This document shows, one piece after another, positions 39,243 through 61,755 of a stretch of DNA of 63,195 nt. This stretch comes from a bacterium HR11. Its GTDB lineage: Bacteria > Acidobacteriota > HRBIN11. The translations under genes and the position numbers were made by a program. Within the stretch, counting starts at the first letter, position 1, and each line of letters begins with the position of its first letter. The notes beneath the pieces are model-generated. The model made no database searches. It saw nothing but the letters and a program-made list of their open reading frames with translations, and was not told the DNA's origin. The DNA lies in assembly GCA_002898535.1 (NCBI GenBank), contig BEHN01000018.1:1-63195 (forward strand), in the 5' to 3' direction.

Positions 39243-41660
39243 CTACCAGGCGGCTCGTAAGGTCAGCAGGACTTTCCGTTCCGGCAGGTACTGCGCCGGA
39301 TTGAAGGCCGTCGCCACCGTGATGGGCACCCGCCGGTTCGTGAGGTTTTCCCCGCCGAGGGTCAGCCACACATCGGGGTTCGAGCGAAACCGCACGGCGA
39401 CCTGCCCGTTGAGGTACAGGTACGAGGGCATCCGGTCGGCCGCCGGAGACATCGCCATCGCGTGGGGCGCCTCGTGATCCTCATGCCCGGCTTCGGCGTG
39501 CTCATGAACCGGCAGGCCGCTGGCCCAGGTCCCCGACAGGGACGCCCGAAGCCACGGCCAAGGGGCCGCCGTGACGATGCCCGTAACCGTATGCCGCTGG
39601 TCCATCGGGGCGGGAAACTTACCGGCCTCAAAGGGGCTCATCTCCGACCGAGCCCCGAAGCCGCCCGTCACGGGCCCATAGAAGTCGTGCCACGCCAGCG
39701 TGTAGTTCAGGATGAAGCTCACCGGGACGGACCGGCTTTCGAAGCGGGCCTGCGTCTCGAAGCCCCGGACCCGCTCGGCCCGGAAGTTCACGTAGGGAAA
39801 CCACTCGAGGGGAAAGTCCCCGACCGTCAGCTCGTTGACCGTGTGGTACACGTTCCGACCGTACCGATAAAAGCCGGCCGTTTGAAATGTCCAGGCTTCA
39901 CGAGTCCATCGGAATCCGACCTCCCACACATCGGCTACCAAGGACCGCACGGGCGTCGAGTCATGCGTGACCGAACTCAGCAGGTAGTTCTCGATCGGCG
40001 GCGACCACACCAAGCGGCCATAACTAAGCAAGACTGAATAAGGACCGTCGGGCGGACCCAGGGTCACGTTCAGCCGCGGCGACACGTAGCTTGCTGACTC
40101 TAACGCCTGGACGCGATCCCACCGCAGACCGACATTCCCCCGGACCCACCGGGCGAGGGCCCAGTGTTGCTCGACAAACAGGCCCGCCAGCCATCCGTCG
40201 TCCCGGGCGCTCCACATCGACGGAAGCGACACGCCGGGGCCCTGGACGACGGCATGGAGGCCGGCCAGGTCCGCCGGCCGCAGAAAGGCCCGTGCAGGAT
40301 GTGCATGAGCGGCCGCATGCGCGGCCCGGGCGTCCAGCGACTCGTCCCAGGTCAGGCGCCGAAGCTGAACGCCGCCCCGGAGGGTCCACTCGGGCCGCCA
40401 CGTGTAACCGACGACGACGTCCAGGTGGCCGACCCCGTCCCGGCGACGGCCACGCCCCCAGAGGTGCTGACCGTCGTGAAGGGCCTCCAGCCGCTGGGTC
40501 TGGAGGGACCACCCCGTGCGAATCGACACCTGCCAGCGGCCTCCGACATAGTCCGTCTCGAAGAGACCGCTGACCTCTGTCAGACGGCTTTCTTGTTCCA
40601 GCCGTTCGGGCGCTGCCGGGTCGAAGGGGATTTGAAAACGGCCGCCGTTGAACATGAGGGTCAGGGCCGACAGCCATCGGTCGCTCCACCGATAGTCGCC
40701 CCGTACGAAAAGCCGCAGGGCCCGACCCCGGTCGTGGGCGACCTCCAGGGCCCGGGGCTGGAAGTACTCGTCGCTCTGAAGGCCGGACAGATTCGTATAG
40801 AGACCCCACCGGTCCCCGCCCGCCCCCAGGGCCACCCGACCCAGCCAGGTGCCCGGCGAGCCGCCCCCGGCCTCGACCTGACCCGTCGTACCCCGAACGC
40901 CGAGGCCGCTCTGCGGCACCGCGTCCATCACGCCCATGAAGCGCCATCCATACTCGGCCGCGTAACCGCCCGTCCGGAGTTGAATCCAGCGGAACACGCT
41001 CGGGTCCGGACCGAGGCCGAAGACGGGGTTCATCGTCCACAAAGCGGTCGTCCCGTTGATGTTGTAGCCGATGGCCGTCTCGGCGCCCCGGACGTGGGCG
41101 ATGTCGTTATGCGACCGGACGACGCCGGGCGACGTCTCGGCCAGGAGGTCCTGCAACTGCCAGCGGCGGCTCACGGCCACGTCCCCCGTCAGGGTCGAGG
41201 AAAGGACGTAGGCCGTCGCAGGCGACTGAAGCTGTTCCGGACCTCGCGGCGCCCGGACTTCGACGGTCCCCGCCGCCTGAGGAATCAGCTGTTGGGGGAT
41301 GCGGACGACGACCGTCGCCCGTTCATTGGGTCGAGCCAGGACTTCCCTCGACTCGACCGGCCGGTCCAGGTACAGGACCTCGACCCGATATCGACCCGCC
41401 GGAAGCGGGACGTACCAGGTCCCGGCTTCCAGAAGAGTCGGGGCGGTCAAAATCGGCCCGTCGGGTTCCATGGGCCGAACCCGGACGGTCACGTCCTGAA
41501 GGGGCGGCTCGACCCGCACGAAGAGCTCACCCCACTGGGCCGCCCTGGCGGGCTGGACGCCCATCGTCAGCATCAAGAGGGTGCCTATGAACACGAAGGG
41601 GCCCGTTCGGAATGCCCCGGTAGAGACCTGTATCCGTCGATCGATCGACCGAGGATTCAT
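39243..41660 (-). CDS. TonB-dependent outer-membrane receptor with His-rich segment
   Basis: The 805-residue protein has a signal peptide (to about A-R-A-A), a carboxypeptidase-regulatory-like beta domain (about 45-130), a plug (L-Q-D-L-L-A-E-T-S-P-G-V-V, I-R-G-A-E-like V-R-G-A-E-T) and a 22-strand-type barrel ending in a terminal aromatic (L-T-L-R-A-A-W). Just before the last strands lies H-E-H-A-E-A-G-H-E-D-H-E-A-P-H-A-M-A-M, which suggests metal binding in an outer loop. The substrate is unknown; copper, nickel or lanthanide uptake are all conceivable. GGGAGG precedes ATG 41660. A Cys-rich small gene lies upstream in the same direction. Confidence 0.9.
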   Translation of the reverse strand: MNPRSIDRRIQVSTGAFRTGPFVFIGTLLMLTMGVQPARAAQWGELFVRVEPPLQDVTVRVRPMEPDGPILTAPTLLEAGTWYVPLPAGRYRVEVLYLDRPVESREVLARPNERATVVVRIPQQLIPQAAGTVEVRAPRGPEQLQSPATAYVLSSTLTGDVAVSRRWQLQDLLAETSPGVVRSHNDIAHVRGAETAIGYNINGTTALWTMNPVFGLGPDPSVFRWIQLRTGGYAAEYGWRFMGVMDAVPQSGLGVRGTTGQVEAGGGSPGTWLGRVALGAGGDRWGLYTNLSGLQSDEYFQPRALEVAHDRGRALRLFVRGDYRWSDRWLSALTLMFNGGRFQIPFDPAAPERLEQESRLTEVSGLFETDYVGGRWQVSIRTGWSLQTQRLEALHDGQHLWGRGRRRDGVGHLDVVVGYTWRPEWTLRGGVQLRRLTWDESLDARAAHAAAHAHPARAFLRPADLAGLHAVVQGPGVSLPSMWSARDDGWLAGLFVEQHWALARWVRGNVGLRWDRVQALESASYVSPRLNVTLGPPDGPYSVLLSYGRLVWSPPIENYLLSSVTHDSTPVRSLVADVWEVGFRWTREAWTFQTAGFYRYGRNVYHTVNELTVGDFPLEWFPYVNFRAERVRGFETQARFESRSVPVSFILNYTLAWHDFYGPVTGGFGARSEMSPFEAGKFPAPMDQRHTVTGIVTAAPWPWLRASLSGTWASGLPVHEHAEAGHEDHEAPHAMAMSPAADRMPSYLYLNGQVAVRFRSNPDVWLTLGGENLTNRRVPITVATAFNPAQYLPERKVLLTLRAAW

Positions 41661-41697
41661 GTGCGACCTCCCCAGACAATAAAGGGCAAGTTGCATA

Positions 41698-41804
41698 GAA
41701 CTCGTCTCAAAACCCTCTCCCCGAGAGAATTCCTTTCAGAAACCCTCTCTCTGTGGGGGAGGGTCGGGTGAGGACCGGAATCTCCGGAATTTTGAGACGA
41801 GTTC
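41698..41804. mobile_element. MITE-like element with 15-bp terminal inverted repeats
   Basis: GAACTCGTCTCAAAA (41698-41712) and its exact complement TTTTGAGACGAGTTC (41790-41804) bound 107 bp with internal CCCTCTCCC / GGGAGGG inverted segments. No coding capacity. It sits between the TonB receptor and the Cys-rich small gene. No clear target-site duplication is seen. Confidence 0.75.
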
Positions 41805-41926
41805 AGATAGACAGCGCCTACGATAAGGCGCCCCAGGCATGAAGACCTGACGCCGCGACCCGCCGGATTCCTTGACGGGACGCCTAAAGCGTCAGGATCA
41901 ACCCGACGTGAGGGATTCTGGATAGA

Positions 41927-48886: not shown

Positions 48887-49237
48887 TCAGAAGGTGAGGA
48901 TCTGAAAGCCGGCGGCGATCCGCTCGGCGACGCTCGGATGCCCCTCAAATTCCTCTAAGGCGGGGACTTGCGCCAGACGGTCCTTCACGCCGAAGGCCCC
49001 CGCGCAGTGGCCACAAGCGCCGGCGATTTGGTCCCGGACAGCCTGAAACAGGGGCCCTAGCCGACTGCCCTCCCGCAGGAGTTCCGGGATCCACCGCGTG
49101 GCCGCACCGTCGAAGACGACCTCCACGGTATGGCCCCTTTCCTTCAACTCCTTCGCGGCGACGAGGGCGTTGGCCACGCGTCCTAAGCCTTCTTCACTGC
49201 CGGGACCGGCCAGGATGAAAATGCTGACTTTCGCCAT
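48887..49237 (-). CDS. DsrE-family protein
   Basis: The 116-residue cytoplasmic protein starts MAKVSIFILAGPGSEEGLGR and has G-H-T-V-E-V-V-F-D-G-A-A-T-R-W-I and C-G-H-C-A-G-A-F-G. The fold and Cys position match DsrE/DsrF-like sulfur-carrier proteins; the C-G-H-C pair could carry persulfide or act in redox. GGAGG precedes the ATG. It lies downstream of the Crp/Fnr gene. Confidence 0.85.
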   Translation of the reverse strand: MAKVSIFILAGPGSEEGLGRVANALVAAKELKERGHTVEVVFDGAATRWIPELLREGSRLGPLFQAVRDQIAGACGHCAGAFGVKDRLAQVPALEEFEGHPSVAERIAAGFQILTF

Positions 49238-49342
49238 CGGTGAACCTCCTCGGGTAAGTAGGGTGAGAAAGTGGGCACCGCTCCCTCGAAATGCCCGTCG
49301 TCGAAAGATAGACGTCAGCCCGGCTGGGGTCTGTAAGGCAGA

Positions 49343-50053
49343 TTACAATTCTTCTTCAAAGAGGGAGGGTAATTTCTCTTGAAGCCCTTGGGGGTCCCGG
49401 ATGCAGATGTATCGTCGGGTGTAGTCGATGATGCCCGCCTTTTTGAGTCTGGACAGGTATAGACTGGCCGTCTCCCGCGAGCAGCCGACCATCGAGGCGA
49501 TCGCCCGGTGGGTCAAGGGGATCTCGAGACACTCGTCGGGACGACGGGCAAACCGCCGATGGAAATCCGACAGGAGATGGAGAATACGGTGTCGGACGTC
49601 CTGAAAGACGACCCCCCGGAGTCGCGACTCCAAAAGACGGATGTAGGCCGCCTGCCGCTGGAGGACCCGCAGGGCCAGGTCGGGGTATCGCTCGATGACG
49701 CTCAGGAAGGCCTGGGGAGCGATGATACAGAGGTCCACCTCCCCGGCGGCCCGGGCAAAGCTGTCGACATGGCCGCCAAAGGACAGGCGTCCGAAGAAAT
49801 CGCCGGGTCCCAGCAGGTCCACGACAAAGACACGGCCCCGGGCGTCCCGGTACCCGAGTTCGACGAACCCCGCCTTGACCATGTAGATGTGGGATTCGTC
49901 GGGAAGGGAAAGGGCGATATAAGTCCCGGGCCGGTAGTGTCGCATCAGGCTCTGGCGGTGGAGCCATCGGAGCTCTTCTTCCGGCAGGCCCTGGAAGAGC
50001 TCCATGCGTTGGAAGTACCACCACAGGAGGGCGGATGGGGTCGTCGGCTTCAT
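49343..50053 (-). CDS. Crp/Fnr-family transcriptional regulator
   Basis: The 236-residue protein has a cyclic-nucleotide-binding-like beta-barrel (about 25-130: Y-R-P-G-T-Y-I-A-L, V-D-L-L-G-P-G-D-F-F-G-R-L-S-F-G-G), a long dimer helix, and a C-terminal winged helix with I-P-L-T-H-R-A-I-A-S-M-V-G-C-S-R-E-T-A-S-L-Y-L-S-R-L. It lacks the N-terminal Cys cluster of Fnr. It is divergent from the beta-barrel gene at 50227 and heads a unit with the DsrE and membrane genes, which it may control. Confidence 0.93.
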   Translation of the reverse strand: MKPTTPSALLWWYFQRMELFQGLPEEELRWLHRQSLMRHYRPGTYIALSLPDESHIYMVKAGFVELGYRDARGRVFVVDLLGPGDFFGRLSFGGHVDSFARAAGEVDLCIIAPQAFLSVIERYPDLALRVLQRQAAYIRLLESRLRGVVFQDVRHRILHLLSDFHRRFARRPDECLEIPLTHRAIASMVGCSRETASLYLSRLKKAGIIDYTRRYICIRDPQGLQEKLPSLFEEEL

Positions 50054-50176
50054 GGGGACTTCCTCGGGGTCAGGGATTCGGGGCTGGATCCATCATGGCA
50101 TCGGAAGTCTTGGAAGCCAAGGCGGCGGGGGTCGGGATGTAACGTCGGGGTCGGGGGGCCCGTACCTTCTGGAGAA

Positions 50177-50200
50177 GCATATACCCCTATGGGTATATGC
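50177..50200. promoter_or_regulatory. Palindromic operator GCATATACCC-CTAT-GGGTATATGC
   Basis: A perfect 10-bp inverted repeat with a 4-bp centre lies 26 bp before the beta-barrel gene and 123 bp before the divergent Crp/Fnr gene. Its ATACCC-N4-GGGTAT core resembles CsoR/CstR-family operators. A second copy of the motif is at 53168-53189. Confidence 0.7.
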
Positions 50201-50226
50201 CCGAATTCCTGTCCAGGAGGTCTGCG

Positions 50227-50865
50227 ATGCGGACTCGAAAACTCCTTAGGATCCTCGCCGTCGGAAGTGTCCTGGCGGCCGCCCCCGCCTGGGCCCAGTT
50301 CCGGGCCAACAGCTTCAACGTCAGCGGCTGGGCCGGCGCCAACATCCGGGACATCGCCACCGAAATCGAGGACCAGGTCCCCGGCCTGGACTGGACGGCC
50401 GGGGTCTCCCTGAACCTGGCCGTCGAGTACGTCACGCCCTTCCCCTGGGTCGGCATCGAGGTCACCGGGAGCTTCACGCCCGTCGACGTCGACACGCCGA
50501 CCGTCCGGGACTACCAGTTCAACTCCTGGTACTTCGCCGGCAACGCCGTCCTCCACATCCTGCCCGGGGAGAAGGTCGTCCCCTACGTGACGGCCGGGGC
50601 CGGCATCGTCGTGTTCGACCCCGACCGGGGCGACTCCCAGACGAAGTTCGTCTTTAACGCCGGCGGCGGCGTGGACATCTTCGTCTGGCGGAGTCGGAAT
50701 GAACGGACGGGTCTGGCCATCCGCCTCGACGGCCGCTTTTACGGCTACAAGTTCGAGGCCTCCGACTTCGACACCGTCACCGTCCGGGACCTGAGCCTAC
50801 CCGGCCGTTTTGACGAGACCCTATGGGATTTCACGATTACCGGCGGCCTCCGGGTCACGTTCTGA
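50227..50865 (+). CDS. Small outer-membrane beta-barrel protein
   Basis: The 212-residue protein has a signal peptide ending A-W-A-Q-F. Alternating beta strands follow: F-N-V-S-G-W-A-G-A-N, G-V-S-L-N-L-A-V-E-Y, W-V-G-I-E-V-T-G-S-F, P-Y-V-T-A-G-A-G-I-V-V-F, L-A-I-R-L-D-G-R-F-Y, ending F-T-I-T-G-G-L-R-V-T-F with a terminal Phe. This is an OmpA/OmpW-type eight-strand barrel. AGGAGGT precedes the ATG. The palindrome just upstream suggests metal- or sulfur-responsive control. Confidence 0.87.
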   Translation: MRTRKLLRILAVGSVLAAAPAWAQFRANSFNVSGWAGANIRDIATEIEDQVPGLDWTAGVSLNLAVEYVTPFPWVGIEVTGSFTPVDVDTPTVRDYQFNSWYFAGNAVLHILPGEKVVPYVTAGAGIVVFDPDRGDSQTKFVFNAGGGVDIFVWRSRNERTGLAIRLDGRFYGYKFEASDFDTVTVRDLSLPGRFDETLWDFTITGGLRVTF

Positions 50866-50955
50866 GGCTGGCCAGGGTAATAAGTGGTGAGAGGCCGGGC
50901 AGGAGACTCGCGGGGTCGCCCCGCCCGGCCCGTATCGATCCCTACGGAGGCCACG

Positions 50956-51744
50956 ATGACGGAGGTAGCCATTCATCCAGGCGTTCTGGCCGACGTCAGC
51001 ACCCACATCTTGCAGGGCATCCGCCGGCGGCCCCGGCAGGAACGGTTTGGCCTGCTCTTTGGACGGGTCGTCGGCGGCGACTTCTGGGTCACGGCTTACG
51101 TCCCCTACACGGGCGGGACTCGCGGGAAGGACTTCGTCGAATTTGACGAACAGCGTCTGTACCGGCGGGTCCGGCGTCTCACCGATGCCCGTCCGTCGGG
51201 GACCTTTTTAGGCCTTTATCATTCCCACCCCCTGCGGTTTTACGAACGGATTCCGTCGGACCTCATCGAACTGGCCGAGGCCTCTCTGGTCGACCGGGCC
51301 AGCTTCACCCGAGTGCATCCCCGACTCCGGCGGGCCTATCGACTGGACGCGATTGTCGCCGTCGGCCCGGCCCGGCAGGCGCCGTCGGTGACCCGATTTC
51401 CCATCATCCGATGTATGCCCAACTGGATCCGCCATAAGGGCCATACCTGGACGTTCAACCTCCTGGGGAACCGGGAAGTTCTTCTCTGGATGCCGGGTCG
51501 GGTCCAGGTCGCCATCGAGCCCGGATGTTGCCGGTGGACCCGGCAGTTCCATTGGTTTTTTGCGCTCCGCATGTATGCCCGCCAGGGCCGTCGGGTCGTC
51601 CCCTGCCGACTCACGGTCGACCTGGAGCTTCCCTACGCCGGGCGATGGGACCGGACGACGGGGCCGATGCCGCAGGTGGCCTCGACCCTGCCGGGTCCTT
51701 GTGAGCCGGGGGATTCCGCCGAACCGGCCGGAGGTCTGGGATGA
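50956..51744 (+). CDS. JAB/MPN (JAMM)-like domain protein
   Basis: The 262-residue protein has Q-E-R-F-G-L-L-F-G-R (Glu29) and L-G-L-Y-H-S-H-P-L-R-F-Y-E-R-I-P-S-D-L (His89, His91, Ser101, Asp102) in its first 110 residues, the order of a JAMM metalloprotease site. The spacing from the second His to the Ser is two residues longer than the usual seven, and the Asp follows Ser directly, so activity is doubtful. The C-terminal part is unrecognised. GGAGG precedes ATG 50956, and its stop overlaps the next gene by ATGA. Confidence 0.62.
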   Translation: MTEVAIHPGVLADVSTHILQGIRRRPRQERFGLLFGRVVGGDFWVTAYVPYTGGTRGKDFVEFDEQRLYRRVRRLTDARPSGTFLGLYHSHPLRFYERIPSDLIELAEASLVDRASFTRVHPRLRRAYRLDAIVAVGPARQAPSVTRFPIIRCMPNWIRHKGHTWTFNLLGNREVLLWMPGRVQVAIEPGCCRWTRQFHWFFALRMYARQGRRVVPCRLTVDLELPYAGRWDRTTGPMPQVASTLPGPCEPGDSAEPAGGLG

Positions 51745-52124
51745 TTTCCTTACAAGAAGCCCAGGAACGACTTCAAGGCATGGCCTGTCCCCGATGCTGG
51801 CACAGTCGCTTGTCGGCCGTCCTGCATCTACTCGAGGGGGGCGAGTGCCTCTGTACGGCCCGATGTGACCACTGCGGGCATGAGTTTCCCGTCGAGGGCG
51901 CCGACTTGGAAACCCTGGAGGCGGCCCGGGACCGCATCGCCGCGGGCCTGCGGACGACCGTCTGCCCGACGTGTCGGACGACGGATTTCGACCTGGACCT
52001 CCGATGCGACAAGCGGGACCGGGAATGCTCTTTCTGGGCCCGGTGTCGGGCCTGCGGCGACCAGTTTCGGGCCATAGACCATCAAGTCTACGTAGACCTC
52101 ATTCGAGACCAGCCACCGGAGTGA
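51741..52124 (+). CDS. Zinc-ribbon protein, partner of the JAB-like gene
   Basis: The 127-residue protein has three Cys-pair groups: M-A-C-P-R-C-W-H, C-L-C-T-A-R-C-D-H-C-G-H-E-F, and V-C-P-T-C-R-T-T-D-F followed by C-S-F-W-A-R-C-R-A-C-G-D-Q-F, giving probably two zinc ribbons. It overlaps the JAB-like gene (ATGA), so the two proteins are likely made together. Role unknown. Confidence 0.72.
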   Translation: MISLQEAQERLQGMACPRCWHSRLSAVLHLLEGGECLCTARCDHCGHEFPVEGADLETLEAARDRIAAGLRTTVCPTCRTTDFDLDLRCDKRDRECSFWARCRACGDQFRAIDHQVYVDLIRDQPPE

Positions 52125-52181
52125 GTCGAGAGGTTCGAGGGTATCCTGGGGGGTGACCGAGCCTTCCCGAATGCGAGGCCT

Positions 52182-52206
52182 GGGTGAGGCACCCCCCTTT
52201 GTTTTT
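52182..52206 (+). terminator. Weak intrinsic terminator
   Basis: GGGTG-AGG-CACCC forms a short GC stem, followed by CCCTTTGTTTTT. It lies about 60 bp after the zinc-ribbon gene. Confidence 0.45.
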
Positions 52207-52309
52207 GGGACCCGGTCTTTGGGGTCGGGGTTCGGCGTCGGGTCTTGCGTGGCGGGAAGGGCCGAACCCCCGATACCCAGGACCTGACACCGACGTAGGG
52301 GAGACGACG

Positions 52310-53119
52310 ATGACGACGGCTCTGGTCCTTTGCGGCGGCGCGGCCCACGGGGCCATCGAGGTCGGCCTCTACCGGGCCCTGGTCGAGTTGGGCATCGAAT
52401 TCGACTTCATCGTCGGGACGTCTATCGGGGCCGTCAACGGGGCTCTGATCGCGGCGGGGCTGTCGCCGGCCGAGCTGGAATCCCGGTGGCGGCACATCCG
52501 AACGGCGGACGTCCTCGATTTCCGTCGGGGTTGGCTTCGCCTTTTACGAAATGCGCCCGCCCTCTGCGACGGATGGCGGACCGAGCAGTTCATCCGACGG
52601 GTCCTGCCCTTTCACACTTTTGCGCATTTGCCCCGCAAGCTGGCCGTCGTCGCCACCGACCTGATGACGGGCGAGGCCGTCGTCCTGGACCGGGACGACC
52701 TGGTCGAGGCGGTCCTGGCTTCGATCGCCCTGCCGGGCCTTCTCCCGCCGCGTCGGTATCGGGGTCGGTGGCTGGTCGACGGGGGCCTGGCGGCCAACCT
52801 GCCCGTCCGGGTGGCTTACGAGATGGGCGCCCGGCGGGTAATCGCCTTTTCCTGCCAGTGTATGAGCCGCCCCGCCGAAGTTCCCCGGGGCGCCCTGGAC
52901 GTCTTATTCCACTGCGTCTCCCTGATGATTGCGACCCAGATGCGGCTTCAGCTCGAGTCGGTCGCCGGCCGTTTGGAAGCCGTCATCCTGGAGGGCTGTC
53001 CGGGGACGGACCTCGACCCCCTCGACTTTGACCGGGCCTATGAGCTCATCGAGCCGGCCTATCGGTCGGCTCGGGCTCAACTCCTTCAGCGGGTCCGGTC
53101 GGAAATCTCCGTCGCCTGA
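52310..53119 (+). CDS. Patatin-like phospholipase
   Basis: The 269-residue enzyme has the oxyanion motif C-G-G-A-A-H-G-A near the start, the nucleophile in G-T-S-I-G (Ser38) and the catalytic Asp in V-D-G-G-L-A-A-N-L-P-V. These define bacterial patatin-like acyl hydrolases that cleave phospholipid or triglyceride esters. A Cys-rich patch S-C-Q-C-M-S follows. No signal peptide is seen. Confidence 0.93.
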   Translation: MTTALVLCGGAAHGAIEVGLYRALVELGIEFDFIVGTSIGAVNGALIAAGLSPAELESRWRHIRTADVLDFRRGWLRLLRNAPALCDGWRTEQFIRRVLPFHTFAHLPRKLAVVATDLMTGEAVVLDRDDLVEAVLASIALPGLLPPRRYRGRWLVDGGLAANLPVRVAYEMGARRVIAFSCQCMSRPAEVPRGALDVLFHCVSLMIATQMRLQLESVAGRLEAVILEGCPGTDLDPLDFDRAYELIEPAYRSARAQLLQRVRSEISVA

Positions 53120-53167
53120 GGCGGACATGGACGGGATAGGCCATGGGGTATATTTTTACGGTGGGTC

Positions 53168-53189
53168 GATATACCCATATGGGTATATC
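53168..53189. promoter_or_regulatory. Palindromic operator GATATACCCATATGGGTATATC
   Basis: A perfect 22-bp palindrome with the same ATATACCC/GGGTATAT arms as the site at 50177-50200 lies 58 bp before a small exported-peptide gene. A half-site GGGGTATAT lies at 53146-53154. Confidence 0.7.
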
Positions 53190-53246
53190 ACGCCCATCCC
53201 GCACACCGAAGACCGAGCACCCAACCTTTCAGCAAGGAGGTCTGCC

Positions 53247-53399
53247 ATGACAAAAGGCTTCCGGTACCTGCCGACTCTGGCCCTCCTGGCCGGCCTGGCC
53301 GGGGCCACCGTCGCCTGGGCTCCTGGCTTGCGAGGCGCCCCTCGTCCTTCACCCCTGAGCCATCGCTCTGGATTCCGGGGCCGGGAGGGTGTAACATAG
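53247..53399 (+). CDS. Small exported peptide under the palindromic operator
   Basis: The 50-residue product starts MTKGFRYLPTLALLAGLAGA, a clear signal peptide ending near A-W-A, and leaves about 25 basic, Ser/Pro/Gly-rich residues. GGAGG lies five bases before the ATG. The gene lies just after the palindrome. Family unknown; it could also be a cut-down remnant. Confidence 0.55.
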   Translation: MTKGFRYLPTLALLAGLAGATVAWAPGLRGAPRPSPLSHRSGFRGREGVT

Positions 53400-53444
53400 G
53401 GAGGGGGGTATCCGTACATCAAAGCAATAGGATAATGAGGCAGT

Positions 53445-53674
53445 ATGGATTCGGCTTTTCCGACCCTTCGGGAAGGACGGTTTTCAAGCTTTGGCAGATA
53501 GGCAGTTCGGCAGATGGGCAGATGGTCCCAAAAGCCCTGGGGCTGATCCTTGCCCACCCGGCTTCTATCTGCCTATCTGCCGACCTGCCCATCTGCCGGA
53601 TGCTTGAAAAACCGTGCTTCCCGGGCGTTAGGAAGGGTTGTTCCGACGCCATTCTCACGAACCGAACGGCTCTG
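53445..53674. repeat. Mosaic TIR element, copy K
   Basis: A shortened left arm (ATGGATTCGGCTTTTCCGAC ... GGTTTTCAAGC) and a full right arm (CTTGAAAAACCGTGCTTCCC ... CGAACCGAACGGCTCTG) flank GCAGATGG arrays in opposite orientation and an AAAGCCCTGGGGC core. It ends 13 bp before the CsoR-like gene start. Confidence 0.85.
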
Positions 53675-53687
53675 TTAGGAGGCCCCC

Positions 53688-54065
53688 ATGCCGGCTCAAG
53701 TCCGACGTCGAGGGAAGACCCCATCCACGGTCACGACGGCCCCGCCGGCCGACCGTCGGGAGGTCCCCGAGGTCCTGCGGACGATCTATCTCCCCAAGCC
53801 CGTCCGGCGACGGCTCATCCATCGCATCCATCGCATCCAGGGCCAGCTCGAAGCCATCCGGCGGGAGATCGCCCGGGGCCAGTGCGCCGACGACCTCCTC
53901 ATCCAGGTCGCCGCCGTCTGGGGGGCCGTCAAGCAGTTGGCCGCCAAAATCCTGGAGAACCACCTGGTCGACTGTGCCCGCACGTGCATGCGGGAGGGCC
54001 GGACTGATGAGGAGGTCCTCGAGCGAATCGCTCGGGCCTTGAGCGTCATCCTGCGGCAGAGCTGA
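53688..54065 (+). CDS. csoR: CsoR/RcnR-family metal-sensing repressor
   Basis: The 125-residue protein has an N-terminal extension of about 38 residues and then the all-helical DUF156 domain: R-L-I-H-R-I-H-R-I-Q-G-Q-L-E-A-I, with Cys66 (G-Q-C-A-D-D-L-L), His92 and Cys96 (N-H-L-V-D-C-A). This C...H-x-x-x-C set is the Cu(I) site of CsoR. It would repress DNA until metal binds. It heads the locus with merT and merA, where MerR or ArsR proteins would be usual. Palindromes fitting this family lie upstream of other genes at 50177 and 53168. Confidence 0.88.
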   Translation: MPAQVRRRGKTPSTVTTAPPADRREVPEVLRTIYLPKPVRRRLIHRIHRIQGQLEAIRREIARGQCADDLLIQVAAVWGAVKQLAAKILENHLVDCARTCMREGRTDEEVLERIARALSVILRQS

Positions 54066-54140
54066 CAGGTCGGCAGATAGGCAGTCGGCAGATGGGCAGG
54101 TAGGGAGATAGGGCGCCATTCGCTGTTCGCCTTTCATTAT

Positions 54141-54400
54141 CAGAGCGGTTCGGTCCGTGAGAATGGCGTCAAATCGACCTTTCCCACCGCCCGGGAAGCA
54201 CGATTTTTCAAGGATACGGGATACGAGATGCGAGATGCGGGATCCCGAGGGGCTTTGGGTCTCGGTAACGGCTTTTCCCGTCCCGTGGCCCTATCTGCCG
54301 ACTGCCGACCTGCCCATCTGCCGAATGCTTGAAAAATCGTCTTTCTCGAAGGGTCGGAAAAGTCGAGTCTATCAGGATTCTCACGAACCGAACGGCTCTG
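54141..54400. repeat. Mosaic TIR element, copy F (both arms complete)
   Basis: The 260-bp element has a left arm CAGAGCGGTTCGGTCCGTGA ... GCACGATTTTTCAAG and a right arm CTTGAAAAATCGTCTTTCTC ... CGAACCGAACGGCTCTG. The arms are imperfect inverted repeats of about 75 bp. The centre has heptamers (GATACGG, GATGCGA) and CCATCTGC units. It lies between csoR and merT. Confidence 0.88.
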
Positions 54401-54446
54401 CTGATTGCTCTACTGCCCTTTGAAGCCCGTCCAAGGAGGTGCCCCG

Positions 54447-55184
54447 ATGCATCCGAACGAGACCCGAGCTCGCCGATGGGCGTCCTGGGCCGTCGGCGGG
54501 GCCGTCCTGTCGGCCCTGGCCGCCTCGGCCTGTTGCTGGCTTCCCTTGCTGGCCCTGGCCGTCGGGGCCTCCAGCGCCGGCCTGGCCCAGAAGCTGGCCG
54601 TCTACCGGCCTTACTTCCTGACCCTCGCCCTGGCGGCGCTCGGCGCGGCCTTCTACCTGACGTACCGTCGGCCCCGGCGGACTCCCGGGGGAGCGGCCGA
54701 TGGTTCGACGTTCTCTGTCGGGGTTGAAGGGGCCCCGGACGCTTGCTGTGCGCCGGCCCCCTCGGAGGCGTCGGACGCCTGCTGTGCGGTCCCGTCGTCG
54801 GCGCCTCGATGGGTTCACCGTCTGCAACATTTCAACCGCATCGCCCTCTGGCCCATCGCCGTCCTCGTCCTGGCCGTGGCCCTGTTTCCGAATTACGTGA
54901 ATGCCCTGCTGGGCGGCGCTTCGGTCGGGAAGGTAACGTCTCCAGTTCAGCCGCCCGCGGCCCTGCAGGAGGTCCGCTTCCGTGTCGGGGGAATGGACTG
55001 TGCCATGTGCGCCGTCGGCATCCGAGCGGCCTTAGAACGCCTGCCGGGCGTCGTCCGGGCCGAGGTCAACTATCCCGACGGGAGCGCCCGGGTCGTGTTC
55101 CGGGACGTCCCGTCGTCAGAACTTCAGGCTCAGATCCGGGCCCGCATCGAGGCGATGGGCTACCGGGTCGATTGGGCCGAATGA
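54447..55184 (+). CDS. merT: Mercuric transporter MerT fused to a heavy-metal-associated domain
   Basis: The 245-residue membrane protein has a MerT-type start: first helix with Cys29-Cys30 (A-S-A-C-C-W-L-P), L-A-Q-K-L-A-V-Y-R-P-Y-F-L, and three membrane segments in all. Extra Cys pairs lie in the loop (D-A-C-C-A-P at 99-103 and D-A-C-C-A-V at 110-114). The C-terminus is an HMA domain with G-G-M-D-C-A-M-C-A (Cys185, Cys188), like MerP. So it combines import and metal hand-over to MerA. AGGAGGT precedes ATG 54447. Confidence 0.9.
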   Translation: MHPNETRARRWASWAVGGAVLSALAASACCWLPLLALAVGASSAGLAQKLAVYRPYFLTLALAALGAAFYLTYRRPRRTPGGAADGSTFSVGVEGAPDACCAPAPSEASDACCAVPSSAPRWVHRLQHFNRIALWPIAVLVLAVALFPNYVNALLGGASVGKVTSPVQPPAALQEVRFRVGGMDCAMCAVGIRAALERLPGVVRAEVNYPDGSARVVFRDVPSSELQAQIRARIEAMGYRVDWAE

Positions 55185-55225
55185 CGTAAGGCCCAATTGA
55201 GCCGGTCGGCCGATAGGCCAGATAG

Positions 55226-55552
55226 CAGAGCTGTTCGGGAGGTGAGAAGTGTGATGGGAAGCGGAAAGGGCACCTCCACGAAAGCACGATGTTTCAAGCA
55301 TTCGGCGGATGGGCAGTTGGCAGATGGGCAGGTGGGCAAATGGGCAGTCGGTAGGTCGGGTGACGGGCGTCTATCTCCGGCACACCGGCCGTCATGCCGG
55401 GGGCTTCCGTAGAGAGCCTGCCGTCCTGCGGGCGTCCTCCGCATGCACCGCCCGTCCTGGCCGGGTCATCCGGAGGAAGCTTGAAAGATCGAGATCGCCG
55501 GGTCATCGTTGTTCCGGATGGGAGCCGCATTTCTCCCAACCGAACGGCTCTG
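55226..55552. repeat. Mosaic TIR element, copy C, with possible ATAG target duplication
   Basis: The 327-bp element starts CAGAGCTGTTCGGGAGGTGA and ends TTCTCCCAACCGAACGGCTC-TG. ATAG lies directly on both sides (55222-55225 and 55553-55556), a possible 4-bp target duplication. Inside are GCAGATGG units and palindromic modules. It separates merT from merA. Confidence 0.85.
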
Positions 55553-55602
55553 ATAGGGAGATAGGGACCGAACTCCCGAACTGCCGGATACGGAGGTGAC
55601 CG

Positions 55603-57276
55603 ATGGCTCTTCAGTGGAAGCTTCGTATCGAGGGAATGACGTGTGAGCACTGTGAAGTCTCCGTCCGTCGGGCCTTGGAGAGTGCCGGGGCCCGGAACGT
55701 GCAGGCCGACTTTCGCCGGGGCGAAGCCGTCTTTGAGGCCGAGGAGACGGCCGACCCCGAGCGCTGGCGGGAAGCCATCCGGAAGGCCGGCTACCGGCCC
55801 GGCGAACTTTCGCTCCTGGGTCGGGTCGGGTCGGTCGAGGCCGTGTCTCAGGAGCGGCCCGTCCACGGCAGGACCCGGAGAGACGCTTACGACCTCGTCA
55901 TCGTCGGTTCCGGGTCGGCGGCCTTTGCGGCGGCCATCCGCGCCCGGGACCTCGGGGCCCGCGTCCTGATGGTCGAGGCGGGGACGCTGGGCGGGACCTG
56001 CGTGAACGTCGGGTGCGTGCCCAGCAAGTTTCTCCTCCGGGCGGCCGAGGTCTATCACCTGGCCCGGCACCATGGTTATGCGGGCATCCCGACCCAGGCC
56101 GGGCCCGTCGACTGGCGGGCATTGGTCGCCCAAAAGGACGAGTTGGTCCGGGCGCTCCGGAAGGAGAAGTATGCCGACCTCGTCGAGCTGTACGGCTGGG
56201 AGCTCGTCCAGGGGCGGGCTCAGTTCGTCGACGCCGAGACGCTGGCCGTGGACGGCCGGACCGTCCGGGCGTCGGCTTACATCGTCGCCACCGGTGCCTC
56301 GCCGGCCGTCCCGCCCATCGAGGGCCTGGTCGAGGCGGGGTATCTCACGAGCACGACGGCGATGGAACTCGAGGCGCTCCCGACGTCGCTGGCCGTCATC
56401 GGGGCGAATGCCATCGGCCTTGAGATGGGCCAACTCTTTGCTCGGCTCGGCGTGCGGGTGACGTTGATAGAGATTATGCCCCGGATCGCGCCCTTCGAGG
56501 AGCCGGAGGTCAGTGAAGCCCTGGCCGCCGCCTTGCAGGAAGAGGGCATCGAGGTCCTCACGGCGGCCCAGGTCCGGCGGGTCGAGCGGACGCCGGTGGG
56601 AAAGCGCCTGTGGGTCCAAGTCGGTGGTGAGCTCCGAAGCTTAGAGGTCGCCGACGTCCTCGTCGCTACGGGGCGTCGCCCAAATACGGAGGGGCTCGGC
56701 CTCGATCAGGCGGGTGTCAAGACGGACCGGCGGGGCGCCATCGTCGTGGACGAATTCATGCAGACGACGAATCCCCGCGTGTGGGCCGCCGGGGACTGCA
56801 CGGGTTCGCCGCAGTTTGTGTATGTGGCCGCCTATGAGGGGACCGTGGCGGCGGAAAACGCCCTCGGTAGCGACCGCCGGCGGGTCGACCTCTCGGTCGT
56901 CCCCCGGATAACCTTCACGACCCCGACCGTGGCGGCCGTCGGCCTGACCGAGGCGCAGGCCCGGGCGCAGGGCTATGAAGTGCGGACGACCGTCATGCCC
57001 GTGGCGGTCCTCGCCCGGGCGTGGGTCAACCGAGACACGCGGGGTCTCTTCAAGCTCGTGGCCGATGCGGCCACGGACCGTCTGCTGGGCGTACACGTCG
57101 TGGCCGACAACGCCGGTGAGGTCATCTATGCGGCGCAGTTGGCCCTTCAGGCCGGCCTGCGGGTCGGCGACCTGGCGGCTACCCTGGCCCCGTATCTGAC
57201 GATGGCCGAGGGCCTGCGGCTGGCGGCCCAGTCCTTTGGCCGGGACGTCGCCCGGATGTCCTGCTGTGCGGGATGA
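55603..57276 (+). CDS. merA: Mercuric reductase with N-terminal HMA domain
   Basis: The 557-residue flavoenzyme reduces Hg(II) to volatile Hg(0) with NADPH. It has an N-terminal HMA domain (G-M-T-C-E-H-C, Cys14/Cys17), FAD motif V-I-V-G-S-G-S-A-A-F-A-A, the redox pair in G-G-T-C-V-N-V-G-C-V-P-S-K (Cys133/Cys138), N-A-I-G-L-E-M-G-Q, A-A-G-D-C-T and the C-terminal vicinal Cys554-Cys555 (M-S-C-C-A-G) that marks MerA among related reductases. All key residues are intact. Confidence 0.96.
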   Translation: MALQWKLRIEGMTCEHCEVSVRRALESAGARNVQADFRRGEAVFEAEETADPERWREAIRKAGYRPGELSLLGRVGSVEAVSQERPVHGRTRRDAYDLVIVGSGSAAFAAAIRARDLGARVLMVEAGTLGGTCVNVGCVPSKFLLRAAEVYHLARHHGYAGIPTQAGPVDWRALVAQKDELVRALRKEKYADLVELYGWELVQGRAQFVDAETLAVDGRTVRASAYIVATGASPAVPPIEGLVEAGYLTSTTAMELEALPTSLAVIGANAIGLEMGQLFARLGVRVTLIEIMPRIAPFEEPEVSEALAAALQEEGIEVLTAAQVRRVERTPVGKRLWVQVGGELRSLEVADVLVATGRRPNTEGLGLDQAGVKTDRRGAIVVDEFMQTTNPRVWAAGDCTGSPQFVYVAAYEGTVAAENALGSDRRRVDLSVVPRITFTTPTVAAVGLTEAQARAQGYEVRTTVMPVAVLARAWVNRDTRGLFKLVADAATDRLLGVHVVADNAGEVIYAAQLALQAGLRVGDLAATLAPYLTMAEGLRLAAQSFGRDVARMSCCAG

Positions 57277-57339
57277 CGGGTGTCGGGTGCTGGGTGTTTG
57301 GCTTTTCTGGAGACCCAAGGCCGAATGCAGGGTACAAAG

Positions 57340-57359
57340 CCCCGCTCGTAAGATCGGGG
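57340..57359. repeat. Small hairpin related to those at 4750 and 9893
   Basis: CCCCGCTCGTAAGATCGGGG matches the CCCCGCTC-N4-GAGCGGGG hairpin with changes in one arm. It lies between merA and the CopZ-like gene. Confidence 0.5.
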
Positions 57360-57394
57360 TCGATGCCTGCAGGATGCATGATGAGGAGATGGCC

Positions 57395-58006
57395 ATGGCT
57401 TTAGGAACGCTTTCGGGGCTGACGTTGGAAGGGACCTGGCGGGAGGACCCGACGGTGTGTCCCCACTGCGGGCGGGCCGCCTGGCCGGTGCCGCAAAACA
57501 TCACGCTGATATCCCACGTGCGGGAGGCTGAGTGGCCCCGGGTCAAGGCCTTGACGGACCGTTTCAAGGGCTTCCGCTTCTGTCCGCACCTAAGATGTCC
57601 CGTCGTCTACTTCCATCGGGACGCCGACCTGGTCGTCGTCGAGGCGGAGGTCCGGACCCGGGTCGGCTACAAGGTCGACGCGCCGCCGATTCCCGTCTGT
57701 TACTGCATCGGCGTCCTGGCCGAGACGATCCGGGAGGAGATCGTCGTGAAGGGCTGTTGCGATTCCCTCCAGGACATCCAGCGGTACACGGGGGCCCGGA
57801 CGGGCAAGTGGTGCCACATCACGAACCCGTCGGGGCGGTGTTGTGGTCCGATGGTCCAGCGGGTCATCGAGGCGGCCCTCCGGGAGCGAGTCGAAGCGGG
57901 TCTGGCCGAGGAGGCCCGGCGGCTGGCCGAACAGATCCCGGCCGATGGTGTCGGCGAGGCCCCGGACATCCCGGCCGACACGTGCTGCCGGCTTACGGGG
58001 CGGTAG
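57395..58006 (+). CDS. CopZ-like Fe-S metallochaperone (zinc ribbon + BFD-like [2Fe-2S] domain)
   Basis: The 203-residue cytoplasmic protein has an N-terminal zinc-ribbon-like part (V-C-P-H-C-G-R-A-A ... F-R-F-C-P-H-L-R-C-P-V-V-Y-F). A BFD-like [2Fe-2S] domain follows (V-C-Y-C-I-G-V-L ... K-W-C-H-I-T-N-P-S-G-R-C-C-G-P-M). This is the extra N-terminal half known from Archaeoglobus-type CopZ, here without an attached HMA domain; the tail ends D-T-C-C-R-L. Next to merA and merT-HMA it may deliver reducing power or metal. GAGGAG precedes ATG 57395. Confidence 0.82.
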   Translation: MALGTLSGLTLEGTWREDPTVCPHCGRAAWPVPQNITLISHVREAEWPRVKALTDRFKGFRFCPHLRCPVVYFHRDADLVVVEAEVRTRVGYKVDAPPIPVCYCIGVLAETIREEIVVKGCCDSLQDIQRYTGARTGKWCHITNPSGRCCGPMVQRVIEAALRERVEAGLAEEARRLAEQIPADGVGEAPDIPADTCCRLTGR

Positions 58007-58017
58007 CGAATGGCGAA

Positions 58018-58085
58018 TGGGGTCCTACCTGCCTATCTGGCGACCTGCCGACTGCCCATCTGCCTATCTCCCTATCTCCCTACCT
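58018..58085. repeat. 8-bp tandem repeat (CATCTGCC/TATCTCCC)
   Basis: Units CTGCCTATCTGG, CGACCTGC, CCATCTGC and CTATCTCC run to the end of the UDG gene on the other strand. Confidence 0.85.
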
Positions 58086-58088
58086 CCG

Positions 58089-58697
58089 TCACGACTCCCG
58101 GGCTTTGGCGGCGACTTGGCGGAAGTCGTCCAGGAAGGCCTGCCAGGTCCGCTCGTAGGCCGCCTCGTCGAGGCTCTTCAGGCGCAGGACGTAGGCCGGA
58201 TGGTAGGTGGCGATGACCCACCGGCCTTCGGGCGTCGGATGCCAGCGGCCCCGGTCCGTCGTCATCTTGAAGCGGCTTCCGAGGAAGGCTTGGGCGGCCG
58301 GGGCGCCCAGGCACACGATGACCCGGGGGTTCACGATCTGGATTTCCTGGGCCAGCCACACGGCGCAGGCCTTGCGCTCGGCCGCCGTGGGGGGCCGGTC
58401 CTGCCGGCGGCCGCCGACGGTCTGGAAGGCCCAGCACTTGATGACGTTCGTCACGTAGAGGTCGGAACGGGCGAGACCGACGGTTTCGAGGGCCTGGTCG
58501 AGGAGCCGGCCGGCCGGGCCGACGAAGGGCCGGCCCGTCTGGTCCTCGACCCGGCCGGGGCCCTGGCCGACGAGCATGACGCGAGCTTCCAGGGAGCCTT
58601 CCCCGAAGACGACCTGGGTCCGGGTCTGGGCCAGGTGGCACCGGGGGCACTGAAGGGCCGCGGACCGCAACGTCTGATAGGCCTGAATCTTATCCAT
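58089..58697 (-). CDS. Uracil-DNA glycosylase, family 4 (Fe-S)
   Basis: The 202-residue repair enzyme starts MDKIQAYQTLRSAALQCPRC. Cys17 and Cys20 with two later Cys (I-K-C-W-A-F, K-A-C-A-V-W) would hold a 4Fe-4S cluster. Motif A reads V-G-Q-G-P-G-R-V-E-D-Q-T-G-R-P-F-V-G-P-A-G, and the C-terminal A-T-Y-H-P-A-Y-V-L-R is the second catalytic motif. It removes uracil from DNA. It is common in thermophiles. Start at ATG 58697; the longer frame reaches into repeats. Confidence 0.94.
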   Translation of the reverse strand: MDKIQAYQTLRSAALQCPRCHLAQTRTQVVFGEGSLEARVMLVGQGPGRVEDQTGRPFVGPAGRLLDQALETVGLARSDLYVTNVIKCWAFQTVGGRRQDRPPTAAERKACAVWLAQEIQIVNPRVIVCLGAPAAQAFLGSRFKMTTDRGRWHPTPEGRWVIATYHPAYVLRLKSLDEAAYERTWQAFLDDFRQVAAKARES

Positions 58698-58815
58698 ATG
58701 GACCATAGACGGTAAGCCCATGGACCATAGACCTGCCTCGGCCCTAAAGACGAGGACGACCGGACGGCCCGAGTAAGTCCATAGTCCGTGGTCTATGGTC
58801 CATGGTCCATGGTCT
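58690..58815. repeat. 7-bp repeats (GGTCTAT / ACCATAG) with inverted arrangement
   Basis: GGACCATAGAC-type heptamers at 58700-58735 face GGTCTATGGTCCATGG units at 58785-58812, giving a loose inverted pair in the gap between UDG and rimI. Confidence 0.75.
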
Positions 58816-58821
58816 TCTCTT

Positions 58822-59364
58822 CTAAGCCAGAGGCGCCTCCATCCGGAGGGCGTCTTCCCCGTCCGGGTAGTAATGGGGGATGATCCGGGCTGTCCGGAAG
58901 CCGAACTTCCGATAGAGGTGGATGGCCCGTTCGTTGTGGACACGGACTTCCAGATACATCGTTTGGGCGCCCAACGTCCAGGCCAGGTACATGGCGTAAG
59001 CCAGGGCGTAGTGGCCCAGGCCCCGGCCCCGGTATTCGGGATGGAGGGTGATATTCGTCAGATGGACCAGGTTCTTCTCGAGGCGGAGGGTGAAGTAACC
59101 CACCAGGCGGACCGGCGGGGTCCGGGTCCGGATGACCCGCAGGACGGCCTTCGGGTTGTCCAGCATTTCGTGAAGGAACGTATATCGCGGCCATGGGTCC
59201 CGGTAGGTCTGCCGCTCGATGGCGAACACGGCTTCTAAGTCGGTCGGTCGCATCCGGTCCAGGCGGTACTGGGCCCCGAAGGCCGACCAGTCGAGCTGTT
59301 CAAAGATACGGGCCCAGGGGGCCTCGACCTGGCGGATCAGCGTGGCCATGCTGGCGTCGATCAT
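58822..59364 (-). CDS. rimI: Ribosomal-protein-alanine N-acetyltransferase-like GNAT
   Basis: The 180-residue enzyme carries a GNAT fold: M-R-P-T-D-L-E-A-V-F-A-I-E-R, R-D-P-W-P-R-Y-T-F, L-T-N-I-T-L-H-P-E-Y-R-G-R-G-L-G-H-Y-A-L (acetyl-CoA site), L-E-V-R-V-H-N-E-R-A-I-H-L-Y-R-K-F-G-F and Y-Y-P-D-G-E-D-A-L-R-M. The last motif is typical of RimI/Naa10-like N-terminal acetyltransferases. It has a 30-residue N-terminal extension. Its ATG overlaps the stop of the upstream gene (ATGA). Confidence 0.9.
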   Translation of the reverse strand: MIDASMATLIRQVEAPWARIFEQLDWSAFGAQYRLDRMRPTDLEAVFAIERQTYRDPWPRYTFLHEMLDNPKAVLRVIRTRTPPVRLVGYFTLRLEKNLVHLTNITLHPEYRGRGLGHYALAYAMYLAWTLGAQTMYLEVRVHNERAIHLYRKFGFRTARIIPHYYPDGEDALRMEAPLA

Positions 59365-60110
59365 AGGTCTACACCGTCATTCGGCCGCGTCGGGTCACAG
59401 GTCCGGTCGGTCCAAAGGGCGTGGAGTCCTTGAATGACGGGGTCCAACTCGGAGGGCGGGTATCCGTACGTTTGAAGTCCGTCCCGGAGGTCCATCCACT
59501 GCCGCAGGAGGGTATAGGTGAGGCGTCGCTCGCTCCACGACAGGCACGGCCCCAAGACGGACCTCCGGGCGAGGCCGTCTAAGAGGTCCTGGCGGGCCCT
59601 CGGGAGGTCGGCGGCGGCCTGGCCCGAGCGGACCCACCGGCGGAACCCCCGGATCCATGTGCTACACAAATCTCTATACCGCTGGAGCCGCTCGATCCAA
59701 TCCCGCTCGACCGAGAGCATAGCGACCGGCCGGGCCGGTAGGACCGCCGGCGGCCGCAGGGCCGGTGACCCCGGGTCCAGGACGACCAGTTCCAGGGCTT
59801 GCCCCGGGTGGACGTATACGACGCTATCGAGGGGGATCCGGCCCCGATACATGCTCTGGACTCGAAGCACGACCCACGTACATGGGTCGTCACCCTGCGG
59901 CGGGATCACGCGGACGACGACCCCGATGGGGGTCCCCCGCCAGACTAAGGGCAAGCCTCGGAGCTCGGCCGGGGCCCCCTGAAAGCAAGCCTTCAGAGGG
60001 AAGGTCCGTCCCCCCAGGTCCCCCATCCCGAGCCCCAGGGCCAGCAGGGCTAAACCCATGGACCCCCAAAGGGCATGGCCGGACCGAACCTTAAGGCTAC
60101 GGTGCCACAT
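59361..60110 (-). CDS. MCE/MlaD-like membrane-anchored protein
   Basis: The 249-residue protein has one N-terminal membrane helix (about 15-32). A domain follows with [26 protein letters not shown] and I-P-L-D-S-V-V-Y-V, which fits the MCE fold used by MlaD-type lipid-transport proteins. A helical C-terminal half follows. No MlaE or MlaF genes adjoin it. It overlaps ispG by 14 bp and rimI by 4 bp, implying one transcript. The assignment rests on pattern only. Confidence 0.55.
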
Positions 60111-61349: not shown

Positions 61350-61603
61350 ATGGGAAGGGGCAGATGGGCAGGTCGGCAGATGGGCAGTCGGCAGGTCGGC
61401 CGGTCGGGCGACAGGCGTCTATCCTGGGAACACCGGCCGTCCTGCGGGCGTCCTCCTCATAAACCGCCCGTCATGGCCGTGTCGATCCCCTCTGAACACC
61501 GCCCGTCATGGCGGTGTCATCCTGAGGAATCTTGAAAAATCGAGATCGCCGGACCACCGTTTTCCCTTATGGGAGCACCATTTCTCCCAACCGAACGGCT
61601 CTG
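61350..61603. repeat. Mosaic element, copy D (left arm missing)
   Basis: GCAGATGG units (61355-61400), palindromic modules (61425-61525, including CACCGCCCGTCATGGCGGTG) and a right arm CTTGAAAAATCGAGATCGCC ... CAACCGAACGGCTCTG fill the gap upstream of ispG. Heptamer-like and GCAGATGG-type remnants continue to 61755. Confidence 0.85.
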
Positions 61604-61755
61604 ATAAAGAGCCTCGGTGTCTGGGATTCGGAGACAAGGAACCTAACACCCAGCACCCAACACCAAAGACCGAGGCCTTGCAGGTGCAGAGTCTGAAGGT
61701 CGTAACTCGCGTGATCTACCCACTTGCCTATCTGCCGACCTGCCCATCTGCCTTC

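Follow-up and report, generated by a model that had tools for sequence, protein, structure and literature searches.

Among 272 mercury-resistance (mer) operons surveyed in 2012, all but two contained merR or arsR and CsoR was not mentioned (PMC3466566), nor is it mentioned in a 2021 survey of mer diversity. A search of the open-licence literature returned no report of mercury regulation by a CsoR protein. MerR holds its metal in a trigonal Hg site made of three cysteines across the dimer interface (PMC5027573). For the CsoR family, selectivity for Cu(I) appears to be indicated by a Tyr at the A position; Cys/His patterns by themselves do not predict the metal (PMC4235346). A consensus binding site, ATATACCCCTNAGGGGTATAT, has been described for Streptomyces CsoR (PMC3902906).

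Here we analyze a mer cluster from a hot-spring acidobacterium. The window, that is the whole stretch of 63,195 nucleotides that was analyzed, corresponds to contig C18; the genome comprises 2.99 Mb in 49 contigs. From its sequence we propose, with a probability of about 60%, that this cluster is run by a CsoR-fold repressor in place of MerR or ArsR, and that the repressor probably senses Hg(II).

Results

The mer cluster and its setting

The first-pass annotation had read the genes as csoR, merT-HMA, merA and a CopZ-like gene, in this order, and the profile matches bear this out (Table 1). The csoR product, of 125 aa, is placed in the CsoR/RcnR family (DUF156) by its PF02583 score. MerA has the complete set of usual motifs, namely the N-terminal HMA domain (GMTCEHC), the active site GGTCVNVGCVPSK and the C-terminal SCCAG. 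The MerT-HMA fusion passes the Pfam MerT cut-off narrowly and stays under the NCBIfam MerTP cut-off. With MerT present and MerA above its curated cut-off, the cluster belongs to the mer operons. The CopZ-like protein scores below the cut-offs of the CopZ_Nterm models and is a candidate metallochaperone. MerR and ArsR genes had been reported as lacking, which holds for the contig: the six MerR-family and two ArsR-type HTH_5 genes of the genome are all encoded elsewhere.

Table 1. Features of the mer locus and its upstream region (positions in the window).
Feature	Position	Strand	Evidence or remark
Candidate CsoR operator 1, ATACCCCTATGGGTAT (in GCATATACCCCTATGGGTATATGC)	50181-50196		about 30 bp before the outer-membrane gene
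Outer-membrane beta-barrel protein (OMP_b-brl)	50230-50865	+	PF13505, 44.8 bits
Candidate CsoR operator 2, ATACCCATATGGGTAT (in ATATACCCATATGGGTATAT)	53171-53186		about 500 bp before csoR
Short ORF, secreted-protein-like start MTKGFRYLPTLALLAGLAGATVAWA	53248-53399	+	sequence, ORF list
Element 1 (E1), MITE-like, left terminal repeat missing	~53445-53674		separates operator 2 from csoR
csoR, CsoR/RcnR-family repressor	53688-54065	+	PF02583, 57 bits (cut-off 22.8)
Element 2 (E2), complete MITE-like copy, inverted ends	54141-54400
merT-HMA fusion, Hg(II) uptake protein	54447-55184	+	PF02411, 34.6 bits (cut-off 32.9); HMA, 41.9
Element 3 (E3), complete MITE-like copy	55226-55552		4-bp target duplication ATAG|ATAG
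merA, mercuric reductase	55603-57279	+	TIGR02053, 600 bits (cut-off 454)
CopZ-N-like / Csac_0668-family zinc + [2Fe-2S] protein	57395-58006	+	zf_CopZ, 35.8 bits

The short ORF between operator 2 and csoR is probably a truncated gene. Its ribosome-site context, AGGAGGTCTGC-ATG, is identical to that of the outer-membrane gene. The block 50880-53450 contains metalloprotease-like, short and patatin-like genes. Downstream of the cluster, repeats of the ATGGACCATAGACC / TGGTCCATGGTC type are found at 58690-58815, between a UDG and a GNAT gene. Rfam matches were not obtained in the region 49000-59500.

The CsoR protein carries an altered cysteine pattern

Copper-sensing family members bind the metal through the X-Y-Z set Cys36-His61-Cys65 and have a second-shell Tyr at the A position. 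In the alignment with solved family members, the window CsoR has His92 at Y and Cys96 at Z; position X is taken by Ala67, and Cys66 lies one residue before it, at the A position where copper sensors carry Tyr35 ('CAD'). Since the distances to conserved residues agree on both sides, this one-residue shift of the cysteine is real and no alignment slip. An additional cysteine, Cys100, follows four residues past the Cys65 equivalent (CxxxC). The predicted structure is a CsoR-like three-helix protein (pLDDT 77 overall and about 95 in the core), and the 18 best Foldseek matches are all chains of CsoR, FrmR, InrS or CstR (probability 0.98-1, E-values 0.01-1.4). In this model Cys66 is located just ahead of the helix formed by residues 67-100, and Cys96 and Cys100 lie at its end.

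The pattern C-A-D ... C-x-x-x-C-M is common to the window, three WOR-3 MAGs and nine other acidobacteria. It is absent from the canonical copper, nickel or formaldehyde sensors aligned. Since the Y-position His, kept in the window and WOR-3 proteins, is Glu in most acidobacterial members, the three cysteines rather than this His would be the common ligands. Cys/His patterns alone are not predictive of the metal (PMC4235346), so we infer the effector from the mer gene neighbours and from the parallel to the three-cysteine site of MerR; it is probably Hg(II).

Tri-cysteine CsoR proteins are linked to mer genes

When 396 acidobacteriota genomes were searched with a profile of mer-linked CsoR proteins, 11 gave matches of 107-137 bits and the next best match reached 63; part of this score gap is expected, as the seeds included three acidobacterial proteins besides that of the window. 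When the profile was made from the window and WOR-3 proteins only, the acidobacterial members mostly ranked above the controls, with overlap. Gene neighbours and operators served as tests independent of the profile. All ten evaluable top matches (window included; G009 was omitted since its csoR is interrupted and lies at a contig end) adjoin merT and/or merA. Mer neighbours were found for six of the six non-seed acidobacterial top matches, compared to merT beside none of ten second-tier canonical CsoR genes (Fisher p = 1.2e-4), and the second-tier proteins lack the C-A-D plus CxxxCM combination wherever the site is readable. In the three WOR-3 MAGs csoR is encoded immediately before merA.

Among 100 merA loci, seven contain a mer-CsoR, 32 only ArsR and 29 only MerR, and neither MerR nor ArsR is present at any of the seven. 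Of the 21 acidobacteriota MerA proteins above the curated cut-off, five are encoded within mer-CsoR clusters (G000, G206, G077, G265, G004), and five further acidobacterial mer-CsoR clusters besides that of the window include a homologue of the CopZ-like gene. Of the nine acidobacterial clusters outside the window, two are without merA (G043, G031), and in three its place is taken by a MerA-like flavoprotein that scores under the curated cut-off; a different soft metal may therefore be the effector. The clusters without merA (L161 in G043, L163 in G031) consist of merT-HMA, the CopZ-like gene and csoR, and encode a tri-cysteine CsoR and a mercury importer without a reductase.

In the phylogenetic tree the window, WOR-3 and acidobacterial mer-CsoR proteins were not recovered as one clade, and a single clade was not rejected (p-AU 0.13). 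A plasmid search with CsoR as query gave no match. Genome G119 (L217) contains a CsoR gene near merT and merA; its product has the ordinary YC pattern and was not counted as a tri-cysteine type, and the family may have been recruited to mer genes a separate time here. Judged by sequence, the CsoR-type mer regulator is real and recurrent, and the CsoR-like repressor is the valuable part of the first-pass annotation.

Candidate CsoR operators

Two G-tract palindromes, at 53171 and 50181, were found in addition to the features of the earlier reading (Table 1). They are the only such palindromes (≤1 mismatch) in the 2.99 Mb genome, with 0.01 expected in the window, and none of the window type was detected in G001, G002 and G003 at the same stringency. 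Operator 2 resembles the Streptomyces CsoR consensus. The architecture in the window is that of a type-2 CsoR operator, with two short G/C tracts and an outer AT-rich inverted repeat, ATATACCC-ATAT-GGGTATAT; the TAC-GTA spacing is 8 in the window and 9 in Streptomyces. The related sequence ATCCCC-N5-GGGGAT is located no more than 50 bp from the operon start at nine of nine acidobacterial loci (one of them counted with a single mismatch) and at none of ten control loci (p = 1.1e-5). In WOR-3 the site ATACCATAGGGGGTAT, which matches operator 2 in its half-sites and its 16-bp length, precedes csoR-merA and occupies the gap between a -35-like and a -10-like sequence (TTGACA-GAATACCATAGGGGGTA-TACTAT).

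In the window the truncated ORF, element 1 and about 500 bp in total lie between operator 2 and csoR, so control of merT and merA from this operator would not be direct. Because operator 1 precedes the outer-membrane beta-barrel gene, the regulon may extend past mercury transport, with this gene as a possible member. The palindrome is absent ahead of the paralogous outer-membrane genes of G001 and G002. Operator 1 also neighbours the divergent gene of a Crp/Fnr-type regulator (49343-50053).

MITE-like elements stretch the cluster

Three elements interrupt the gaps of the cluster, and their ends had been placed 13, 46 and 50 bp before csoR, merT and merA, which is exact; the gap between merA and the CopZ-like gene contains no element in the window. 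The terminal motif AACCGAACGGCTCTG occurs in 355 copies (≤1 mismatch) across the 2.99 Mb genome compared to 0 for the reversed control, a number far above chance. With ≤2 mismatches, 508 element ends are present in this genome (control 3) and 221 in the sister genome G001 (control 12); G002 and other genomes are at background level. Complete copies are 238-516 bp long and have the inverted ends CAGAGCCGTTCGG, and an exact 4-bp duplication, usually with a central TA, flanks 12 of 21. With inverted ends, target duplication, many copies and polymorphism between close relatives, the elements are MITE-like. Runs of GGCAGATGGGCAG/CTGCCCATCTGCC units, which give the elements their mosaic look, are found within them and also outside, at 58022-58088, 61359-61407 and 61717-61752.

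Placement was analyzed on the 398 kb contig C1 with approximate gene calls. There, 59% of the element ends are in tandem gaps, which hold 61% of the intergenic bases; the respective values are 25 versus 22% for divergent and 15 versus 18% for convergent gaps. Since the ends track the share of intergenic bases, insertion appears to be passive. The grouping of three elements at the mer locus is not special, as contig C1 likewise has 2.2 kb stretches with at least three of them. Ordinary mobile DNA is the most likely identity of the elements.

Gene spacing was compared with relatives. The distance between csoR and merT is 13 bp in G265 versus 381 bp in the window, the csoR-merA gap in a WOR-3 genome (L089) is about 18 bp, and merT and merA are 418 bp apart in the window. 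The idea that the elements had broken an operon stands insofar as the cluster is stretched relative to compact relatives.

The sister species lacks csoR

The nearest relative of MerA, 92% identical, is encoded in Acidobacteriota bacterium JZ-1.bins.94 (L041), on an 8950-base contig whose match is contig C333 of G001, a genome from the same genus. In this sister, merT-HMA is 78% identical and merT-merA-copZ are retained; csoR and the operator palindrome are both absent. The merT-merA gap of the sister is 146 bp long and free of element 3, and the window gap minus element 3 matches it except for a stretch present only in the sister. A different element copy (an element end) is found in the merA-copZ gap of the sister, and a remnant of element 2 is present at the matching place before merT. 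Upstream of merT the sisters differ completely, with the csoR block in one and a different gene in the other, and the breakpoint is at element 2. Apart from a match of 28 bp, neither G001 nor G002 has a counterpart of 50880-53450, and DNA orthologous to the short ORF was likewise not found in them. Since the sister has no counterpart upstream of merT, the csoR side was either gained in the window lineage or lost in the sister. This change could plausibly have come about by recombination at the elements.

Discussion

According to our proposal, apo CsoR would bind the G-tract palindromes at the promoter (operator 2 and operator 1) and block transcription. The site for a thiophilic metal, which is most likely Hg(II), would consist of Cys66 at the beginning of helix 2 and, from the partner subunit, Cys96 and Cys100 at the end of this helix. 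The metal-bound repressor would then release the DNA, allowing expression of csoR, merT-HMA, merA and the CopZ-like gene, with predicted roles in import, reduction to Hg(0) and chaperoning. Despite the three MITE-like insertions in the gaps, expression could persist by read-through or from weak promoters of the genes themselves.

The locus might instead encode an ordinary copper-responsive CsoR, or a persulfide-responsive one similar to CstR, so that mer expression would respond to copper or sulfur stress; we regard this as rather unlikely. Family membership, His92 and Cys96 at the canonical positions, the CopZ-N-like protein in the cluster, the clusters without merA and the similarity to Streptomyces CsoR sites would all agree with it. 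However, Cys36 is replaced by Ala and Tyr35, which is said to mark Cu(I) selectivity (PMC4235346), by Cys, His92 has become Glu in most acidobacterial members, and merT is found at 0/10 canonical CsoR loci. The earlier suggestion that the locus serves copper as well as mercury is weakened, since this CsoR is without the Cu(I) ligand Cys36 and Tyr35. We consider it unlikely that the elements are functional regulatory modules which provide each mer gene with its own promoter or terminator, even though they end 13-50 bp ahead of three gene starts, would fold far more strongly as RNA than shuffled sequences (z -5.7 and -4.7) and, in E2, include a single weak hairpin of terminator type on the coding strand. 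Against this, their placement tracks intergenic bases, E3 is missing in the sister, where another copy is located elsewhere, and matches are near chance for promoters (1 versus 0.7 expected, on the non-coding strand) and for terminators (8 versus 5.1 ± 2.4). That the elements supply or block promoters, as had been suggested, is not supported, given their placement, the absence of E3 in the sister and the lack of a coding-strand promoter match within them; termination of transcription by their strong hairpins is conceivable.

The two palindromes could belong to another regulator such as the Crp/Fnr-type protein, since operator 1 lies between its gene and the divergent outer-membrane gene. This is quite improbable, as similar palindromes precede csoR-merA in WOR-3 and the sites are of CsoR type 2. 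Crp/Fnr proteins bind TTGAT-N4-ATCAA or TGTGA-N6-TCACA. We find it very improbable that a MerR-family protein encoded elsewhere acts in trans and that csoR became a neighbour by rearrangement. The best genome match to the Hg MerR model, a protein encoded on contig C13 (G000, 41472-41861; L214, L218), reaches 116 bits and has a MerR-family counterpart in G001, which is csoR-less, and element 2 marks the breakpoint between the two species. The protein scores below the curated cut-off of 150.85 bits, though, and lacks an equivalent of Cys82, one of the three Hg ligands; an Hg(II)-sensing MerR with all three cysteines is not encoded near merA, no MerR-type dyad precedes merT or merA, and the linkage of csoR to mer genes extends to other phyla. 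The C13 protein keeps the equivalents of Cys117 and Cys126, and its gene adjoins a selA-like gene.

If the mer cluster is controlled by its CsoR protein, repressors of the CsoR type would be an additional class of mercury regulator in poorly cultured lineages and would explain some of the mer clusters that appear 'unregulated'. They would also be a clean case of a metal-sensor family switching its metal by one moved and one added cysteine. We give even odds to the wider view that CsoR-fold repressors of Acidobacteriota and WOR-3, with the copper site rebuilt as a tri-cysteine Hg(II) site and G-tract operators on mer, constitute a third mercury switch convergent with MerR.

Several known systems share parts of this arrangement. 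MITEs resemble the window elements in length (238-516 bp), inverted ends, a 4-bp NTAN duplication and the absence of visible coding capacity; the interior of the window elements, in contrast, is variable and mosaic. MerR of Tn501 regulates merT-merP-merA and senses Hg(II) via three cysteines across the dimer interface, yet it has an unrelated fold, is an activator-repressor rather than a simple repressor, and is absent from the window. The ArsR-type regulators of Streptomyces lividans and Sulfolobus are likewise mer repressors in lineages without MerR (PMC3466566), but they are winged-helix proteins and none is encoded on the window contig. InrS, RcnR, FrmR and CstR share family and fold with the window protein, and changes of effector are known among family members; InrS, FrmR and RcnR keep the X-position Cys, CstR was compared by its fold alone, and a linkage of these four to mer was not found in the literature examined. 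Closest is CsoR itself (M. tuberculosis, S. lividans, G. thermodenitrificans), with the same DUF156/PF02583 three-helix fold, the Z-position Cys, the Y-position His retained in the window, a type-2 G-tract operator and a repressor gene heading a metal operon. The window protein differs from it by Ala for Cys36, Cys for Tyr35 and an extra Cys four residues after Cys65, and the operon it heads is mer instead of copZ-copA.
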